Shown here: piece after piece, positions 606 to 41,343 of the stretch
Layout of the letters: the number at the start of each line of letters is the position of its first letter
Position numbering within the stretch: position 1 is the first letter of the stretch
IMG/VR virus record: IMGVR_UViG_3300027852_000021
Coordinates: 1-41,343 of that record
Reading direction: 5' to 3' (one strand)
Source: a virus
DNA: 41,343 nucleotides
Translations under genes and position numbers: made by a program
The notes under the pieces: generated by a model
The model's input: only the letters and a program-made list of their open reading frames with translations
The model's database searches: none
What the model was told of the DNA's origin: nothing

Positions 606-950
606 ATGAGAACAACATTAGTACTCAATATCATAATAATTTTGCTGGCATCATTTCTTTTCGGAGGGATTCTTTCTTGGGTACGGAAAAAGCCCCTCGA
701 AAACATACCGCCCAAAAGCACGCCCCCCGAAAGTAAAGCCCATAAAACCATGCCACCAGGATATTCTCTTGTTTATAATGCCAAAGGGCTTTATTCTTTT
801 AGGCATGATATAACAGGTTTTGTGGCTGGAGATGAGATAGAGCCTTCCAAAATTAAAAAAGAGGCAATTAAAGAGGCATGGCAACTATATAAATTTAAAC
901 TAACCCATAAACCAAAAAAGCCGGAGAAGTGGTTTTCGTGCGATCCCTAA
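606..950 (+). CDS. Single-pass membrane protein of cassette 1
   Basis: A 114-aa protein starting at ATG 606 behind AAAAGGAGGTAAAGAAAAA; upstream in-frame starts have no binding site. Residues 2-24 form one hydrophobic helix (LVLNIIIILLASFLFGGIL) followed by basic residues. A proline-rich linker with two MPP/TPP motifs comes next, then a charged C-terminal domain with a WF near the end. The stop TAA (948-950) lies inside the first box of the attC-like site at 945-992, the usual relation between an integron cassette gene and its site. No function is recognised. Membrane-anchored small proteins are common among cassette and accessory phage genes. Confidence 0.72.
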   Translation: MRTTLVLNIIIILLASFLFGGILSWVRKKPLENIPPKSTPPESKAHKTMPPGYSLVYNAKGLYSFRHDITGFVAGDEIEPSKIKKEAIKEAWQLYKFKLTHKPKKPEKWFSCDP

Positions 951-992
951 CAACAAGTTCGAGCGGATAACCCGCTCAACTTGGAGTTAGAC
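945..992 (+). other. attC-like recombination site A
   Basis: The inverse core box CCCTAAC (945-951) and core box GTTAGAC (986-992, a full match to GTTRRRY) enclose an imperfect hairpin. CTAAC pairs with GTTAG. After an unpaired AA/GA spacer, CAAGTT pairs with AACTTG and GAGCGG with CCGCTC, closed by a 5-nt loop. One extra base, C960, sits in the left arm only. This is the architecture of attC: R boxes, spacer, L boxes with an extrahelical base, terminal loop. The GTT(C)GAGCGG arm resembles the L box of classical cassettes. At 48 bp it is shorter than the usual 57 bp or more. A recombinase would cut after G986. Confidence 0.72.
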
Positions 993-1037
993 CCCCTGCT
1001 TGACAGGATGGCTGGCAAGTGATGAGGAGGGGGTAAA
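987..1037 (+). promoter_or_regulatory. Cassette leader that can mask the RBS of the next gene
   Basis: ACCCCCT (991-997) is complementary to AGGGGGT (about 1028-1034), which is the ribosome binding site of the gene at 1038. Between the arms lies CAGGATGGCTGGCAAGT, repeated exactly in the leader of the other cassette at 1777-1828. The shared segment also contains a mini-ORF, ATG GCT GGC AAG TGA, ending just before the binding site. Translation of the mini-ORF or binding of a ligand could control access. The structure is inferred from base pairing only. Confidence 0.5.
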
Positions 1038-1502
1038 ATGAGTTTTAGTATTAAAGAAATATGGGAGGTTAAGGATAAAATGATTGAGCACCCCAAAGAA
1101 ATAATAATAATCCTTGCCATAGTTGCCATAATAATTTTGGTAGGGTTCTATTTGCATGGTCTTTTAAGTGAAATGGGCAAGCAGACAATAAAGAACGATG
1201 TCCAATCAATGCCCATTGAAAACAAAATAGGAGGAGACAAGATTAATGGGGATAAATATGTTGTAGGTGGCGATCTTGTTGATGGGGATAAGTATCAAGT
1301 AAACACCTCAGATGGAGAAAGTGAACCCCTTGGGCCAAATAAAAAAACAATGCCACCACAACAAACAACTGGAATTAAAGTTGAGGGGAAAAGAAACCTT
1401 ACGAGTGGCAATGTTGTTATAGGCGCAGATACCGGCTATGATATAAGCGGCGAAGACAATGTAACGACAGATAATAAATATGACCCTTCAAAATCAGAAT
1501 AA
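1038..1502 (+). CDS. Membrane-anchored protein with GGDK-type repeats (cassette 2)
   Basis: A 154-aa protein, ATG 1038 after GAGGAGGGGGTAAA. Residues 22-44 form one strongly hydrophobic helix (IIIILAIVAIIILVGFYL). It is followed by short tandem repeats of the form GGDKxxGDKYxxGGDxxDGDKY and then a Gly/Asn/Thr-rich tail with VVIGADTGYDISGEDN. GDxxxGD repeats of this kind occur in bacterial accessory proteins, some linked to conflict systems. I do not assign a function. The gene fills a unit bounded by attC-like sites A and B (587 to 599 bp, cut after G986 and G1585). Confidence 0.72.
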   Translation: MSFSIKEIWEVKDKMIEHPKEIIIILAIVAIIILVGFYLHGLLSEMGKQTIKNDVQSMPIENKIGGDKINGDKYVVGGDLVDGDKYQVNTSDGESEPLGPNKKTMPPQQTTGIKVEGKRNLTSGNVVIGADTGYDISGEDNVTTDNKYDPSKSE

Positions 1503-1543
1503 CCCTTTGTCGGAATGGACGGAATGGATACATGATAACCTCA

Positions 1544-1591
1544 CCCTAACCAAAAGATGCACCCGATGAACGGGTGATCTTGGTGTTATGT
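1544..1591 (+). other. attC-like recombination site B
   Basis: CCCTAAC (1544-1550) and GTTATGT (1585-1591) bracket a hairpin: TAAC with GTTA, AAGAT with ATCTT, then an unpaired G1559 on the left arm, and CACCCG with CGGGTG around an ATGAA loop. The order of boxes and the single extrahelical base match sites A and D. The right box fits GTTRRRY in six of seven positions at most. TTTGTCGG (1506-1513) and CCGACAAA (1593-1600) form a further inverted repeat around the element. Confidence 0.65.
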
Positions 1592-1732
1592 GCCGACAAA
1601 AAGAAATATTACAACTGTTGTGATATCACAACAGTTGCAGCAGACAACAAACAAGTGTCGGTAAATTCAGTTGTGGTGATATCACCACAACTGGCAAAGG
1701 AGTTGTGATATCACAACCCCAAGAAAAGTTCT
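1592..1732 (+). promoter_or_regulatory. ORF-less cassette with three perfect palindromes
   Basis: Between attC-like sites B and C there is no gene. The longest ATG frame, at 1588, encodes 11 residues and lacks a binding site. The unit instead carries three perfect palindromes. The first is 26 bp at 1612-1637, the second 26 bp at 1668-1693, the third 16 bp at 1702-1717. The first and third share GTTGTGATATCACAAC; the second has GTGGTGATATCACCAC. Centres are 56 and 29 bp apart. All are centred on TGATATCA, so each contains GATATC. They could be operators for a dimeric protein or RNA hairpins. The exact symmetry is far beyond chance. Confidence 0.8.
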
Positions 1733-1782
1733 CCATAACCAAAAAATACACCCGATAAAGACGGGTGATTTTGGCGTTAGGC
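1733..1782 (+). other. attC-like recombination site C
   Basis: CCATAAC (1733-1739) and GTTAGGC (1776-1782, a full GTTRRRY match) bracket the hairpin AAAAT/ATTTT, an unpaired A on the left arm, then CACCCG/CGGGTG with a 7-nt loop. The stem sequence is close to site B, and the GGCGTTAGGC right end is typical of integron cassettes. It closes the palindrome-bearing unit and opens the next gene-bearing unit. Confidence 0.68.
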
Positions 1783-1828
1783 CCCCTTAATCAACAGGAT
1801 GGCTGGCAAGTTAAAGGGGGTGGGTTAA
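1777..1828 (+). promoter_or_regulatory. Second cassette leader with RBS-masking stem
   Basis: This leader matches that at 987-1037. CCCCCTT (about 1782-1788) pairs with AAGGGGG ahead of the GTG start at 1829, and the loop contains the same CAGGATGGCTGGCAAGT. The pairing arms differ in sequence from the first leader but stay complementary (CCCCCT/AGGGGG against CCCCCTT/AAGGGGG), which supports a kept RNA structure. The internal ATG GCT GGC AAG frame here runs to a TAA directly touching the GTG start, so translational coupling is possible. Confidence 0.5.
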
Positions 1829-2374
1829 GTGTCGAAAATATTATGGATTATTGGGTTAAATATAGTCTCTTATTTTTTAAGTAAAATAATTGACAGGATA
1901 ATTGGGAGGTCGCCCGAAATGATGCAAGCATTTACAAATTTTGTTGGCGTAAGTTTTTATTACGCCATATTTTTTGCCCTGATAAACATTGGAGCCCTTT
2001 ATTATTTTACAAGGGACCAGGCCCCAGGGGTTGTCCCCCTTGCACTAAAAAAAACCATCACAAACAAAACTTTCAGAGTAGAAAAAGAGATAATTGACGG
2101 GAAACAATATGTTAACTGTACGTTTGATGGAGCGGAGTTAATATTTAAAGGGACTCGTCCTTTTAGTTTAAATTATAATAAATTTTCGCGGCCCGCACCT
2201 AGAATAAAATTTGAGGATAGCGCAAGGCTTACTATTGAAATGCTTGCCGCTCTTTATTCTGACCCAGTATTTAGGCCGGTGATTGAAGCAACTTTTGAAG
2301 ATATAAAAACAGGTGGCATTAAGCAACCAAAGCAGGGAACAAGACAGACTGGATGCAGGACAGACTCACCCTAA
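1829..2374 (+). CDS. Two-helix membrane protein of cassette 3
   Basis: A 181-aa protein with a GTG start at 1829 behind AAAGGGGGTGGGTTAA. The N-terminal third has two hydrophobic stretches (residues 4-22 and about 40-62). The soluble C-terminal part has the motif NKTFRVEKEIIDGKQYVNCTF and later ARLTIEMLAALYSDP. A similar hydrophobic N-terminus plus FxxCTF-type module occurs in small membrane proteins of accessory gene pools, with no known function. The stop TAA (2372-2374) lies in the CCCTAAC box of attC-like site D. The last 15 residues are polar and poorly structured. Confidence 0.72.
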   Translation: MSKILWIIGLNIVSYFLSKIIDRIIGRSPEMMQAFTNFVGVSFYYAIFFALINIGALYYFTRDQAPGVVPLALKKTITNKTFRVEKEIIDGKQYVNCTFDGAELIFKGTRPFSLNYNKFSRPAPRIKFEDSARLTIEMLAALYSDPVFRPVIEATFEDIKTGGIKQPKQGTRQTGCRTDSP

Positions 2375-2416
2375 CCAAAAAATGCAGCGGACGAGCCGCT
2401 GATTTTGGCGTTATGC
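2369..2416 (+). other. attC-like recombination site D
   Basis: CCCTAAC (2369-2375) and GTTATGC (2410-2416) bracket a hairpin: TAAC/GTTA, AAAAT/ATTTT, an extrahelical G on the left arm, then CAGCGG/CCGCTG around ACGAG. The TGCAGCGGACG...CCGCTGA arm is very like those of known cassette arrays. It is the last site of the array; the following small gene has no site behind it. Confidence 0.7.
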
Positions 2417-3554: not shown

Positions 3555-6065
3555 CTAATTCGACCAAGGCCCGATAATATCATAAAATGTATACCCCGCT
3601 AGGTCTCCGCCTGTATAGTTATTAGGTATTTCTACCACTCCTACGGCACATCTCCCCCCACTATTATGTGGTAACTTTGCTGCTGCTTGAGAAGCGGCAA
3701 CATCACCAGCAATTCCATTTCCCGTTCCGGCAGAACTAAGAACTAAAAGCACTTTTCTATATTCCGCCGCCCCTGTTTGAAAACCTGCTGCTGAGATATC
3801 AAACAAGTCATCTGTACTGGCCTTAGTATAGACAAGTCCATTAATCGAATATGTTACCGTGGCAGATATTCGCGCTTTCCCATTTGTGGTAGCGTCCCCA
3901 ACGGCAGCCCCGGTATCATGTAGAACAAAGCTATTCACGTGCTGTTTTTTAATTTCCGTTCCAGTTCCGGCAACGATATTATCATAATACTGAGTCGCCT
4001 CGTTATTTATATCCCCTGAAGTATTGTTAAATAGGGTATTTCCTTCAAAAATAAGTGTCGGGCTTCCTGCTGAAACAGTCCAGTTTATCCCATATCCAGC
4101 GTTTCCGGCTGAGGTATTTCCTCTGAATATAATCCCACCAGTACCACTAACAGGATTATTTAACAATATCCCATCGCCAGGGAAGTTAAGAACCGTATTT
4201 CCCTCAAAAACTGTTCCGTCCAATCTATTATCAACTACTAATCCACTTCCATATGGTGCTGAAACATAAGTACCATCACCCACAACCATATTACCTTTAA
4301 CAACACTATTTTTTTGGTAATCAATCCATATTCCTGTATTGAACCCAATAATTGTGTTGTTAGAAAATATATTATCCCCAAAATAGACTCTTTCTGTATT
4401 ATCCGAAAAACTCCTTATTCCAGTGCGGTCTGCACTGTTTGATGGATCAAAACAATAAATTACATTGTTGCTTATTACATGCCCAGTTGCTTCAAAAGTT
4501 GCCCCAACCCCCTGTGAAGTTTTACTGGTGCCTAAATTCGTTCCATCTACGATAATCCCAATTTTCGCACCTGTGACCGTATTCCCTGAAATATTACATC
4601 CTTTTGCCAGCCCTGTTGTTGCAATACTGGCTGAGGTTGCACCCATAGTACCACTAGAATCAACGGTGTTCCCACATATGGTAGTATATAAAGAGTGTGT
4701 CTTTATACCGTTTTGCCATACATTTTTAACAGTATTATTGTTAACAACATGAAAAGAGCCTGTGCCAATATATACCCCATGCTCTGACATATTATAAGAC
4801 TCGTTCCCTATGAATTGTAGTTGCTGAATATCTTCAGTATACCCTGTTTCATCTCCCGCAACATTAGATACTGAGGTTATTGAAGTAGAAAGGTTGTTAA
4901 ATTTACTGTTTAATACTCTGAAATTATCTCCACCGCCATAAGTTGTTCTTTTCCCTAATGCAACCCCTACCCTTCCCCTAGAACCAGCAGCAAGAGGGGA
5001 GGCGTTCTCAAAGGTACATTTTTCAATCAAGGTATCATCTGTATCCGCCGCGAAAATACCATAATCATCAATTTCATAAAAACCACAACCAGTAAAAGTA
5101 TGATTATCAGATTGATCAATATATATGGCAGTATATGCACTATAAGTTGAATCACCACCCGTAGAATGGCTCCCTTCTCCGTACATATCAAGGCCGGTTA
5201 TAGAAAAATTATCACTGGTTACTGTGAATAAAATAAAGTTATTGTCTGCGGCGAACCGCTTGATTGAAGAATTATGCGCGATTATCTCGGCATCAACCCC
5301 TGGGGTAACAGTGGCACTAATATAAATATCCATATTGGCAATAACAACCGGAACTTTTGACGTGCCGGAGAAATTAACGGCATCAACCAAATGTGTCCTT
5401 TCATCCGTAGCATCACCAGTGACCCCAAACCACTCAACAGGGAACTCGGATATTTTTGGAGAACCGTTAACCGCGCCGCTCCCCGTCCAGTTGAAGCATT
5501 GATATGCCCCGGCACTTATTGGCCCATTGATGGTAAGAGTAGCCGCTCCGCCTCCGTCTGAGATGATTGCGCCTGGTTCTATTATAAGGGCAAGGGTGCT
5601 TGGTATTGTTTCAGTAGTAGACAGTGTATAAGTAGTATTCGCCCCGGAACTTCCACGGCTGAGAACAAGGGCCCCAACGTTTGACCCGGCTTGATCGACA
5701 TAGTATTTAATCGTGTTGTTATCACCCGTAACACCTTGATCTGCCGCCGTCGCATCAGGATAGAAGGCGTTTGAGTGGAAATCTCCGTAGTCAAGGCCCA
5801 CCCCTGTTATATTATCCCGAGGCCACCCCCCTTGCTGAACATCACTTGAATCTAAAAGATTAAGTTTATACGACCCGGAAAGATAGACAATGGCTTTGCC
5901 CTCAGAATCCAACACAACCGGGTTTGTATTTGCATTGCCATCCTCATCATAGGTAGCTTTTGGTGTGCTTGTTCCCGGTTCATAGCTATATAACTTCCCT
6001 CCGGCGAGTGGATCACCACTTGCGTCATATGCCCTAAATAATGGATGTGTTAATAGCTGTGTCAT
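3555..6065 (-). CDS. Tailspike with right-handed beta-helix
   Basis: An 836-aa receptor-binding protein, the counterpart of P22 gp9 by position and design. Residues 1-90 resemble the particle-binding head of tailspikes (HPLFRAYDASGDPLAGGKLY, then SGSYKLNLLDS). From about residue 200 to 720, repeated short strands with GN(T/N), VKGNxV and FEGNT motifs form a pectate-lyase/NosD-like parallel beta-helix, likely with polysaccharide-cleaving or deacetylating activity. The last 100 residues form a separate cap. ATG 6065 overlaps the end of the upstream gene (ATGA). The helix repeats are Asn-rich, as in other phage spikes. Confidence 0.88.
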   Translation of the reverse strand: MTQLLTHPLFRAYDASGDPLAGGKLYSYEPGTSTPKATYDEDGNANTNPVVLDSEGKAIVYLSGSYKLNLLDSSDVQQGGWPRDNITGVGLDYGDFHSNAFYPDATAADQGVTGDNNTIKYYVDQAGSNVGALVLSRGSSGANTTYTLSTTETIPSTLALIIEPGAIISDGGGAATLTINGPISAGAYQCFNWTGSGAVNGSPKISEFPVEWFGVTGDATDERTHLVDAVNFSGTSKVPVVIANMDIYISATVTPGVDAEIIAHNSSIKRFAADNNFILFTVTSDNFSITGLDMYGEGSHSTGGDSTYSAYTAIYIDQSDNHTFTGCGFYEIDDYGIFAADTDDTLIEKCTFENASPLAAGSRGRVGVALGKRTTYGGGDNFRVLNSKFNNLSTSITSVSNVAGDETGYTEDIQQLQFIGNESYNMSEHGVYIGTGSFHVVNNNTVKNVWQNGIKTHSLYTTICGNTVDSSGTMGATSASIATTGLAKGCNISGNTVTGAKIGIIVDGTNLGTSKTSQGVGATFEATGHVISNNVIYCFDPSNSADRTGIRSFSDNTERVYFGDNIFSNNTIIGFNTGIWIDYQKNSVVKGNMVVGDGTYVSAPYGSGLVVDNRLDGTVFEGNTVLNFPGDGILLNNPVSGTGGIIFRGNTSAGNAGYGINWTVSAGSPTLIFEGNTLFNNTSGDINNEATQYYDNIVAGTGTEIKKQHVNSFVLHDTGAAVGDATTNGKARISATVTYSINGLVYTKASTDDLFDISAAGFQTGAAEYRKVLLVLSSAGTGNGIAGDVAASQAAAKLPHNSGGRCAVGVVEIPNNYTGGDLAGYTFYDIIGPWSN

Positions 6066-9742: not shown

Positions 9743-10731
9743 TATTTCATCCCAAATAACTCTTTAAGCAAATAAACAGCCTTCTTTTTATCTATTCTTT
9801 TGGCCTCATAATCCGCCTTAATCCCTTCGGCTGTGATGCCCAAATCCTCTGCTTTCCCTCCATCCTTTACATATTTAATAGCGAGGGTTTCTGCTGCTTC
9901 CAGAGCTTCCCCGGCAACTTGTTCTTTATTGGGGTCTGCTATAAACTGGCCTACTCCACGTTGAGCTTGATAGTAACGGCCTATTGTTTGAAAATATCTA
10001 TCACTAGCAAGTTTTTGTTTTTTTGCACCTTCCTTTTGCTTCTCGGTTAACTTGCCCCCTTCCTTTCCTTTGGCTTCTATAATTGCCAGCTTATCTTTTT
10101 GCAACCTTGCTTGCTTTTCTTCCCACTCTTCCTGTGTTCCACCATAAGCAAGGGGTTTTTTATTCGCACCCTTAACTCTTTCCCTCTTCATCGCAGCCGT
10201 ATCTTTTTGCGCTTGGAGTTTTGAAGCGTGTCCAGCCTTTAGATTTTCAAGCCCCTCTCTCCCATACGTTTTTGCTATTTCAAGATCAAGATCATGGCTT
10301 GCTTTTATACCGGCTTGGCGTTCTTCCCCTTCCTGCTCTCTCTCAAACTTTCGCCCTGAGATTATTTCTTTTACCTTTGCTTCCGGGTCTACGGAGTTTA
10401 TTAATAAATCCTCATGGGCTTCTTTCCCTGGATATGTAGTTGAAATCCGGCCTTTCATTTCAGGGAATTCCGCCTCGTAATTATTTACTACCTGCACCCA
10501 GTTGTTTTCATTCGCCATTGAAAAATGCCGATTCACGCCAGCGATTGATTGCTTAAGTCTGTCCGCCGCCTTTGCCCGTTCGTAGGCTTCTGTCTTTTGC
10601 CCTGAAAGGACATTTCTTTGCTTCTGCCCCTCCATAGCCCCCTTTAGTTGTATAGCGTTTGAAAGGGCATTTACAAGCTGCGGAGGTTGGTATTGGGGAA
10701 TTCTCCCCTGTCCGTAATCTAAGGCGTTCAT
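9742..10731 (-). CDS. Helical ejection protein (gp20-like position)
   Basis: A 329-aa protein that is almost entirely charged helix, rich in Lys, Glu, Ala and Gln, with long runs such as KLTEKQKEGAKKQKLASDRY. It has no Cys or membrane segment. P22-like phages carry three internal proteins (gp7, gp20, gp16) between the tail hub genes and the tailspike; this is the middle one here. The composition fits a protein stored in the capsid and expelled with DNA. The start ATG 10731 follows AGGAGATATAATC. Confidence 0.65.
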   Translation of the reverse strand: MNALDYGQGRIPQYQPPQLVNALSNAIQLKGAMEGQKQRNVLSGQKTEAYERAKAADRLKQSIAGVNRHFSMANENNWVQVVNNYEAEFPEMKGRISTTYPGKEAHEDLLINSVDPEAKVKEIISGRKFEREQEGEERQAGIKASHDLDLEIAKTYGREGLENLKAGHASKLQAQKDTAAMKRERVKGANKKPLAYGGTQEEWEEKQARLQKDKLAIIEAKGKEGGKLTEKQKEGAKKQKLASDRYFQTIGRYYQAQRGVGQFIADPNKEQVAGEALEAAETLAIKYVKDGGKAEDLGITAEGIKADYEAKRIDKKKAVYLLKELFGMK

Positions 10732-11752: not shown

Positions 11753-12198
11753 TTCTTTAATACCTTCAGTATTTCATTTAAGATTGTCCCGATTGCATCT
11801 AAAGCGGATTCGATATCAGGAATTGCGTTTGCGACAAGATCATCCCTGAGAGCGTCCGCTGTTGCCGGAGCATCCGCAGGATCGGTTATTGTATGGCTTT
11901 CACTTGCATCTGAAATGTTATGTTGAATCCGAATGGTTTTTGAGTCAGGGAGACTCGCAAGCAATTCAATCTTGTCTAGTCGTTTTTTGAGCTCTCCATT
12001 ATTATTTTTCGGAAGAAAAAGTATCTTTTCTAGTTCCTTAACCCGTTTTTCAAGCTCCCCGCCTCTCTTGTCAAAAGAAGTATAGAGCAAGATTTCAGCA
12101 TCTTCTGCCCGTTTAACCCCGACATACATTTGATAAAAAAAATCCTGCCAGAACAGAGAGCTTGTGTTTTTATCTTTAACGGGTGGAGGTATACTCAT
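11749..12198 (-). CDS. Coiled-coil virion protein, possible tail needle part
   Basis: A 149-aa protein. Residues 30-75 form a heptad-like helix (KRGGELEKRVKELEKIL, NGELKKRLDKIELLA), followed by a Thr/Asp/Ala-rich stretch and a second helix ending LNEILKVLKK. It lies directly after the gp10-like hub gene, as gp26 (needle) does in P22, but is shorter and shows no sequence match I can name. A needle or trimeric plug role is an inference from position and coiled coils. Confidence 0.55.
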   Translation of the reverse strand: MSIPPPVKDKNTSSLFWQDFFYQMYVGVKRAEDAEILLYTSFDKRGGELEKRVKELEKILFLPKNNNGELKKRLDKIELLASLPDSKTIRIQHNISDASESHTITDPADAPATADALRDDLVANAIPDIESALDAIGTILNEILKVLKK

Positions 12199-36440: not shown

Positions 36441-36603
36441 GGTTGAATATGAAGATTTCATGGACAGGCATATCCGTTGCGACCATCAATTGCTCGGCAC
36501 GCTTATTGCCGCAGAGAGGGAAATGGGACGGTTGATAGGAGAAAACAAAGACCTGGAAAGGGTGATAAAATACTTAAGAGAGAGGGGGGGGTCTGTGGAA
36601 TGA
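36400..36603 (+). CDS. Paralogous small protein, copy 2
   Basis: A 67-aa protein, ATG 36400 within the end of copy 1. RHIRCDHQLLGTLIAAEREM, followed by VIKYLRER, aligns with copy 1 (about half of the residues identical). Its stop overlaps the start of the RecE-like gene (ATGA), so translation is coupled. Confidence 0.65.
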   Translation: MKTLQTLIKKVKHKVEYEDFMDRHIRCDHQLLGTLIAAEREMGRLIGENKDLERVIKYLRERGGSVE

Positions 36604-37397
36604 AAGAAGGCTGGCACGAAATGACAAACGAAGAATATCACAAGGAAAAAGGTCTTTCCTCAAGTGGTATCATCCAATTGCTCAAATCCCCGGCCCATTA
36701 CGCAGCAAGGGAAGAGTTTAAGAAAACTGATGCAATGATCCAAGGGAGTGCTTTACATTGCCTTACACTCGAACCTGATTCGTTTAATGATAGGTTTATT
36801 GTAATGAAAAAGGGAGAGGTACGAACGGCGACAAAAAAGGCGAAGGATAACAGTAAATCCCTACTAACAAGCGGCCAATACAAAGAGGCGCTAAAATGGG
36901 CGCAAGAAATTGTTTCAAACCCATACGCAGAGAAATTACTGCACGCTCTCGGCCCGGTCGAGCAGTCAGGTTTCTGGCAGGACGAAGAAACAGGGGTGTT
37001 GCTAAAAGTCAGGCCAGACAAAAAAATACAAGAGCTTAAAACTGTGGTAGACGTGAAAACTTGGTCACTGGCAAAGCATTACAGCCTGGATTATGACTGG
37101 TTATGGTCAAAAGAAATTTCAAACCGGAAATATCATATCCAGGCGACACATTACCTGAACGGCTGCTCTATCCTTGACGAGATAGAGTATGAGAATTTTG
37201 TTTGGATTGTTATAGTTAAGGAACCGCCTTATCAAGTATTAACTTATGAGTTAACCGAAATTGACAAAAAAGATGCTCAAGATGAGATTGAGTCTGCACT
37301 ATGGGAGTATAAGGAGTGCATGGAGAAAGATATATGGCCTAAACCGTCATTTCCCGGGATTAGGCAAGCAGGACGTTATCAATGGCAAAACAGATAA
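36600..37397 (+). CDS. RecE-like exonuclease (PD-(D/E)XK, DUF3799-type)
   Basis: A 265-aa nuclease. The family start MTNEEYHKEKGLSSSGI, the GSALHCLTLEPD motif (His53), and LLKVRPDKKIQEL with VVDVKTW (Asp140, Asp151, Lys153) give the catalytic site of RecE/YqaJ-like enzymes. TRP-rich stretches and IQATHYLNGC follow as usual. It should chew 5' ends of double-stranded DNA and leave tails for the next gene's product. I choose ATG 36600; the longer frame to 36477 overlaps the paralogue gene. Confidence 0.85.
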   Translation: MKEGWHEMTNEEYHKEKGLSSSGIIQLLKSPAHYAAREEFKKTDAMIQGSALHCLTLEPDSFNDRFIVMKKGEVRTATKKAKDNSKSLLTSGQYKEALKWAQEIVSNPYAEKLLHALGPVEQSGFWQDEETGVLLKVRPDKKIQELKTVVDVKTWSLAKHYSLDYDWLWSKEISNRKYHIQATHYLNGCSILDEIEYENFVWIVIVKEPPYQVLTYELTEIDKKDAQDEIESALWEYKECMEKDIWPKPSFPGIRQAGRYQWQNR

Positions 37398-41104: not shown

Positions 41105-41299
41105 ATGAATAAAATAACCATTGACGAATATACTCTATCCAACATTCTAAATAATTATTGTTCCTGCGGCGGTCGTGGGCCGAAAGATGATCCGTGTGAC
41201 GCATGTGCTATTTGGCATGAAATTATAGCGTGTAAAACCGAAGACTTGGCGGATAAAGATTTCTTAAGGGAGAAGCAAAATAAAAAACGGAAACTGTAA
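41105..41299 (+). CDS. Small Cys-rich protein at the circle junction
   Basis: A 64-aa protein, ATG 41105 with GCGAAAGGAGAGTTAACAAAAA upstream in part. NYCSCGGRGPKDDPCDACAI gives two Cys pairs, a likely metal site, followed by a basic end. Its last 78 bases are repeated at 1-78 because the circle was opened here. The next gene overlaps its end. Confidence 0.7.
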   Translation: MNKITIDEYTLSNILNNYCSCGGRGPKDDPCDACAIWHEIIACKTEDLADKDFLREKQNKKRKL

Positions 41300-41343
41300 A
41301 TATTGTGGGGCCCCCTTGCCGGATTCCAAAGGGAAAAGAGCAT
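41222..41343. repeat. Terminal direct repeat, copy 2 (circular overlap)
   Basis: This segment is identical to 1-122 (see that entry). It contains the end of the Cys-rich gene at 41105-41299 and the beginning of the zinc-ribbon gene at 59-316. Confidence 0.93.

Follow-up and report, generated by a model that had tools for sequence, protein, structure and literature searches.

We identified four attC sites in the genome of a tailed phage, the virus record IMGVR_UViG_3300027852_000021 (positions 1 to 41,343; this whole stretch of DNA was analyzed and is called the window below). They are attC sites by their sequence, their asymmetric structure, and the orientation of the genes between them. The array, which consists of four attC sites bounding three cassettes together with the attC tail of an upstream unit and which has no IntI, very probably represents a CALIN (i.e., at least two attC sites within a few kilobases and no integrase gene). 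The four sites lie within 1.5 kb, and two of the three units are single-gene cassettes in attC orientation, the third having no gene. The array was classified as a CALIN and not as an integron because the phage has neither an integron integrase nor any other tyrosine recombinase. It belongs to a kind of phage CALIN already described in 2023 (PMC9892861).

Genome and position of the array

Comparison of the window ends revealed an exact 122-bp direct terminal repeat (1 to 122 = 41222 to 41343); thus, the record probably represents the complete genome, approximately 41.2 kb in size and either circular or terminally repeated. Family matches include a P22-like portal, a terminase, an endolysin, and an exonuclease VIII-like protein (36477 to 37397; phrog_412, E = 1e-61; also PF12684). 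The window had no DNA-level match to known phages. Terminase matches in bacterial genomes were at most 45% identical and spread across phyla, and they point to no single host.

The rightward genes start at 36 kb, cross the joined ends, and stop at 2574, and the leftward cluster extends from 27 kb to 2812. The attC array is the distal, final part of the rightward cluster, ahead of a terminator-like hairpin, where a first-pass annotation of the same DNA had placed it. The cluster ends with the following features:

2440 to 2574, + strand: small ORF (44 aa) with a ribosome-binding site, downstream of site D
2581 to 2628, no strand assigned: long GC-rich hairpin, then TTATTTTA (RNA fold of 2570 to 2645, z = -5.5)

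The small ORF is the last gene of the rightward cluster and had no match in a Pfam search. The hairpin, lying between the converging gene clusters, is a probable terminator. The GC content of the array (40%) is near that of the phage (42%), and composition therefore gives no sign of recent import.

Anatomy of the attC sites

IntI acts on the folded bottom strand of attC and cuts the R' box at G|TT. The four hairpins to which the first-pass annotation had ascribed an attC plan are present as follows:

945 to 992, + strand: attC A, R'' CCCTAAC, extrahelical C at 960, R' GTTAGAC; closes the unit with ORF 606-950
1544 to 1591, + strand: attC B, R'' CCCTAAC, extrahelical G at 1559, R' GTTATGT; closes cassette 1
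1733 to 1782, + strand: attC C, R'' CCATAAC, extrahelical A at 1748, R' GTTAGGC; closes cassette 2
2369 to 2416, + strand: attC D, R'' CCCTAAC, extrahelical G at 2384, R' GTTATGC; closes cassette 3

Each site is laid out as R'', 8 nt, an unpaired base, a 6-bp stem, a loop, the second arm of the stem, L', and R'. Each matches 12 or 13 of the 14 positions of the R'' (RYYYAAC) and R' (GTTRRRY) boxes; A and C have GTTRRRY in full, as had been noted earlier, and B and D depart from it at one R (GTTATGY), as do many sites of bacterial arrays. As single-stranded DNA, the bottom strands fold better than their shuffled versions (z = -6.6 for A, -4.6 for B, -2.9 for C, and -2.6 for D), with a single bulged base at the identical place in all four folds. 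This extrahelical base stands on the L'' arm, 8 nt past R'', in every site, as in most of the parsed bacterial sites. The inner stems vary between sites yet keep their pairing (GAGCGG/CCGCTC, CACCCG/CGGGTG [twice], and CAGCGG/CCGCTG). In two cases, a stop codon lies inside the left box, namely, in A (ORF 606-950) and D (ORF 1829-2374), in agreement with the earlier observation.

The first-pass annotation had cautioned that 48 to 50 bp is shorter than usual for attC. This caution can be lifted: a 48-bp attC site of the same build (L249:6864-6911) occurs in a bacterial integron locus that also has a good IntI, and short length is therefore no objection.

Covariance-model search and controls

An initial scan used two boxes and a bulged stem. 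The four sites ranked at the top of the window, shuffled windows gave approximately 0.5 hits each at a much lower threshold, and 1.58 Mb of other viral loci contained no site scoring that high. This pattern had been shaped on the window, and an independent test was therefore carried out with a covariance model, R1. The integron integrase model TIGR02249 was searched against 398 genomes of one phylum, Pseudomonadota, of which 73 were above the cut-off. DNA adjoining 20 of the integrase genes was fetched, and 16 attC sites were aligned with their middle loops trimmed. R1 was built from these 16 integrase-linked bacterial sites only, with the window excluded. Because the parser that chose the reference sites demands an L'' arm with a bulged base, R1 is not blind to that one feature.

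R1 recovered all four sites on the + strand of the 41-kb window: D (40.1 bits, E = 3.3e-7), A (38.7 bits, E = 6.8e-7), C (32.3 bits, E = 2e-5), and B (25.2 bits, E = 9e-4). The covariance-model check proposed in the first-pass annotation thus gave a clear positive (E = 3e-7 to 9e-4). Nothing beyond A to D was found in the window up to E = 10, and each site has the expected base in 12 of the 12 columns that are invariant in the reference set. As a positive control, the integron loci yielded 109 matches at E values up to 1, mostly in one-strand rows. No match was found in 89 phage loci (terminase related or pattern picked; 0.89 Mb). Separately, exact attC-like DNA patterns were searched for in viral contigs, and their matches were rejected, as they do not score as attC; a stricter attC pattern was absent from the viral and genome contigs searched.

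These results bear on the possibility that the sites are intergenic hairpins that end minus-strand transcription from the late genes and resemble attC by chance. Terminator-like matches do occur on the minus strand at A, B, C, and D, and T runs follow the inner hairpins on that strand. However, a terminator needs neither TAAC/GTTA boxes, nor a fixed bulge, nor the 12 invariant attC columns, the 0.89 Mb of related phage DNA contains no such match, and the separate hairpin at 2581 to 2628 already lies between the clusters. We therefore consider this explanation extremely improbable.

Cassettes and their genes

Measured between successive G|TT points, the units are exactly 599, 191, and 634 bp long, in agreement with the lengths given in the first-pass annotation, which had also recognized two units with one gene and one without. 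The units and the ORF ahead of them are as follows:

606 to 950, + strand: ORF of 114 aa with a hydrophobic N terminus; TAA stop in the R'' box of A
987 to 1585, + strand: cassette 1 (599 bp), ORF 1038-1502 of 154 aa with a hydrophobic N-terminal segment
1586 to 1776, + strand: cassette 2 (191 bp), without a convincing gene; three palindromes around GTKGTGATATCACMAC
1777 to 2410, + strand: cassette 3 (634 bp), ORF 1829-2374 of 181 aa; stop in the R'' box of D

In both gene-bearing units, the attC strand carries the longest ORF, as it does in 36 of 39 intervals of bacterial arrays. Family searches gave no match for ORF 606-950 and nothing above the cut-off for ORF 1038-1502. The C-terminal part of the cassette 3 protein matches phrog_26297 and is 33% identical to a protein of Elizabethkingia phage EKP1, which is encoded there beside lysis genes. 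N-terminal helices are predicted for this protein, and they alone are confident in an otherwise poor AlphaFold model (pLDDT of 50). No relatives were found for the cassette 1 protein among the phages searched, for the cassette 3 protein among the plasmids searched, or for the cassette proteins among the viral contigs searched, and PADLOC gave no hit for the cassette proteins. The cassette 1 and cassette 3 proteins have at best a very weak likeness to each other (29% over 62 residues; E = 0.026). Our guess is that the gene products of the array, two of which have a membrane-like N terminus, may be accessory cell envelope proteins.

Cassettes 1 and 3 are also alike in their DNA, both at the head (49 bp at 73%, right after the R' box and including an identical 18-mer; repeat D6) and at the tail (73 bp at 78%, attC included; repeat D2). 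Cassette 2 departs from both at the head and over most of the tail. Because cassettes 1 and 3 are alike at both ends and the intervening cassette 2 is different, the unit that is repeated extends from one attC to the next. The R boxes were also compared: R'' matches the R' box of the previous site, at the head of its own cassette, at 5, 6, and 6 of 7 positions and the R' box of the same site at 5, 5, and 5 positions (three comparisons), and the corresponding means in control arrays are 6.16 and 5.56. The direction of this register appears right for cassette shuffling, which it weakly suggests.

The two gene-bearing cassettes begin with similar leaders:

990 to 1036, + strand: cassette 1 leader, CCCCCT / AGGAGGGGG stem around ACAGGATGGCTGGCAAGT (RNA fold, z = -2.7)
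1781 to 1828, + strand: cassette 3 leader, the identical 18-mer and a comparable stem (RNA fold, z = -1.0, by itself not significant)

In both, the exact 18-mer ACAGGATGGCTGGCAAGT is flanked by C-run and G-run arms, and the stem would hide the ribosome-binding site by pairing. The 18-mer was not found elsewhere in the searches. The leaders are not in Rfam, a search of which gave nothing at gathering cut-offs and only chance hits below them. Cassette 2 contains three near-identical perfect palindromes of the GTTGTGATATCACAAC type around TGTGATATCACA (1612 to 1637, 1668 to 1693, and 1702 to 1717), which occur elsewhere in the window only with 3 mismatches. The region folds strongly as RNA (1600 to 1740; z = -6.9), and the palindromes resemble operators or, alternatively, an RNA that forms three hairpins.

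Other phage records with attC arrays

Searches with R1 led to two further phage records. Among the full records of terminase relatives, G006 (IMGVR_UViG_3300033407_000004; 76 kb) alone matches at E values below 1. Its terminase is 54% identical to that of the window, and it carries two attC arrays without an integrase (L182:12676-15727 and L181:11437-12608). Most of its genes are opposed to the attC direction, which is unusual: among the six intervals with an ORF of at least 60 aa, the longest ORF follows the attC direction in one, versus 36 of 39 in bacteria. In 80 endolysin-related phage loci (0.67 Mb), R1 gave three matches, all in contig L106, which itself has an array (3910 to 3962, 10622 to 10707, and 11842 to 11904). 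This contig is part of G417 (IMGVR_UViG_3300042731_003895), a 39-kb phage record with four attC matches. By eye, its operon genes run opposite to attC; a mechanical longest-ORF test on one interval returned "same."

The arrays of G006, in which the attC-like sites stand mostly against the genes, could speak for a phage-specific repeat that is mobile in its own right (MITE-like or intron-like) and merely resembles attC, as could the sequence similarity among B, C, and D in the window. Such a repeat is very unlikely to account for our sites, given that a model trained solely on integrase-linked bacterial sites finds them and that, in the window, the repeat borders individual genes whose orientation is the usual one.

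Origin and mobility of the array

The integron integrase model (TIGR02249) had no match in the whole record. The first-pass annotation had already noted that IntI is absent, and this absence extends to all PF00589 tyrosine recombinases in the record. No attI was recognized in the window, so neither of the components of a complete integron (intI and attI) was found. At the left border, there is no recognizable attC (R1) or attI, and the left end of the array is undefined, as ORF 606-950 has no attC to its left. The best terminase relatives (65 to 73% identical) are short fragments or records without this neighborhood. No related phage with a precise cassette gain or loss and no homologous cassette in bacteria were found. 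The first-pass annotation had proposed that the phage picked up cassettes, perhaps through a host integron. The presence of attC cassettes in the phage is borne out; one-by-one pickup via a host integron is not, as no close relative, gain or loss, or bacterial homolog was found.

For the CALIN, two origins can be envisaged. A host integron integrase, acting in trans, may have inserted cassettes into the phage DNA, or the recombination genes of the phage may have taken up a piece of an existing array as a ready-made block. Replication would expose the bottom strand in single-stranded form, and this strand would fold. IntI would then cleave its R' box (G|TTRRRY), so that cassettes could leave to, or enter from, a host integron. 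The cassette genes would be read with the phage's own operon, with no Pc promoter needed.

It is also possible, though we hold this only tentatively, that the array is a fossil, that is, attC by descent, acquired in a single event as one block through the general recombination of the phage and inert since. The phage has no integrase, a RecE-like exonuclease gene is present (36477 to 37397), the array and phage have similar GC contents, and there is no record of single gains or losses, all of which fit this view. However, each of the four sites retains intact stems, R boxes, and its extrahelical base, and both A and D score above 38 bits, which argues against long decay. A fossil array is compatible with the CALIN interpretation except for present activity; our confidences in the two overlap and are not exclusive, since both hold the sites to be attC by descent.

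A more far-reaching idea, which we consider rather doubtful, is that several phage lineages keep a cassette pool of their own, made of integrase-less attC arrays that are traded among phages and hosts via borrowed host IntI. Under this idea, the common leader hairpin in the window would control translation, and the counter-oriented genes of G006 would point to cassette formation inside phages.

With the CALIN described here, a phage genome that is apparently complete and has four well-preserved attC sites joins the few phages known with integron cassettes, and G006 and G417 are two more phage records with attC arrays. If the sites are active, phages would be vehicles that carry cassettes between bacteria, and the origin of cassettes and the entry of phage genes into integrons would become testable. 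If cassettes form inside phages, as the orientation in G006 may suggest, this would bear on cassette origins.

Comparison with known integrons and CALINs

The attC sites of Pseudomonadota integrons, such as the one at L249:6864-6911 beside an IntI, have their R'', L'', extrahelical base, L', and R' placed as in the window and share with it the 48-bp length and, with site D, a GCAGCGGAC..GCCGCTGA core. Unlike the Pseudomonadota integrons, the window has no IntI and no attI; unlike in their attC sites, its L'' is A rich (CAAAAAAT) and the CCC at R'' pairs incompletely with R'.

In a screen of 10,705 phage genomes, Qi and colleagues identified 3 complete integrons, 1 integrase without cassettes, and 17 CALINs, several of the latter in virulent phages; IntI1 recombined five of the six phage attC sites assayed (PMC9892861). 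The temperate-phage integrons (i.e., Vibrio anguillarum phage p16, a P1 derivative, and Shewanella M16-3; PMC9892861) resemble the window in carrying attC arrays in phage genomes and differ from it in carrying an integron integrase. Closer to the window are Tetrasphaera jenkinsii phage TJE1, whose CALIN has 3 attC sites and 4 ORFs, Pseudoalteromonas phage PH101, and Polaribacter phage P12002L (PMC9892861), all of which have attC sites and small genes without an integrase; in TJE1 and PH101, the cassettes all point in one direction, as they do in the window. Compared with these CALINs of virulent phages, the window is distinguished by four attC sites of 48 to 50 bp, one gene-less palindrome cassette, and two cassettes that share a leader hairpin.
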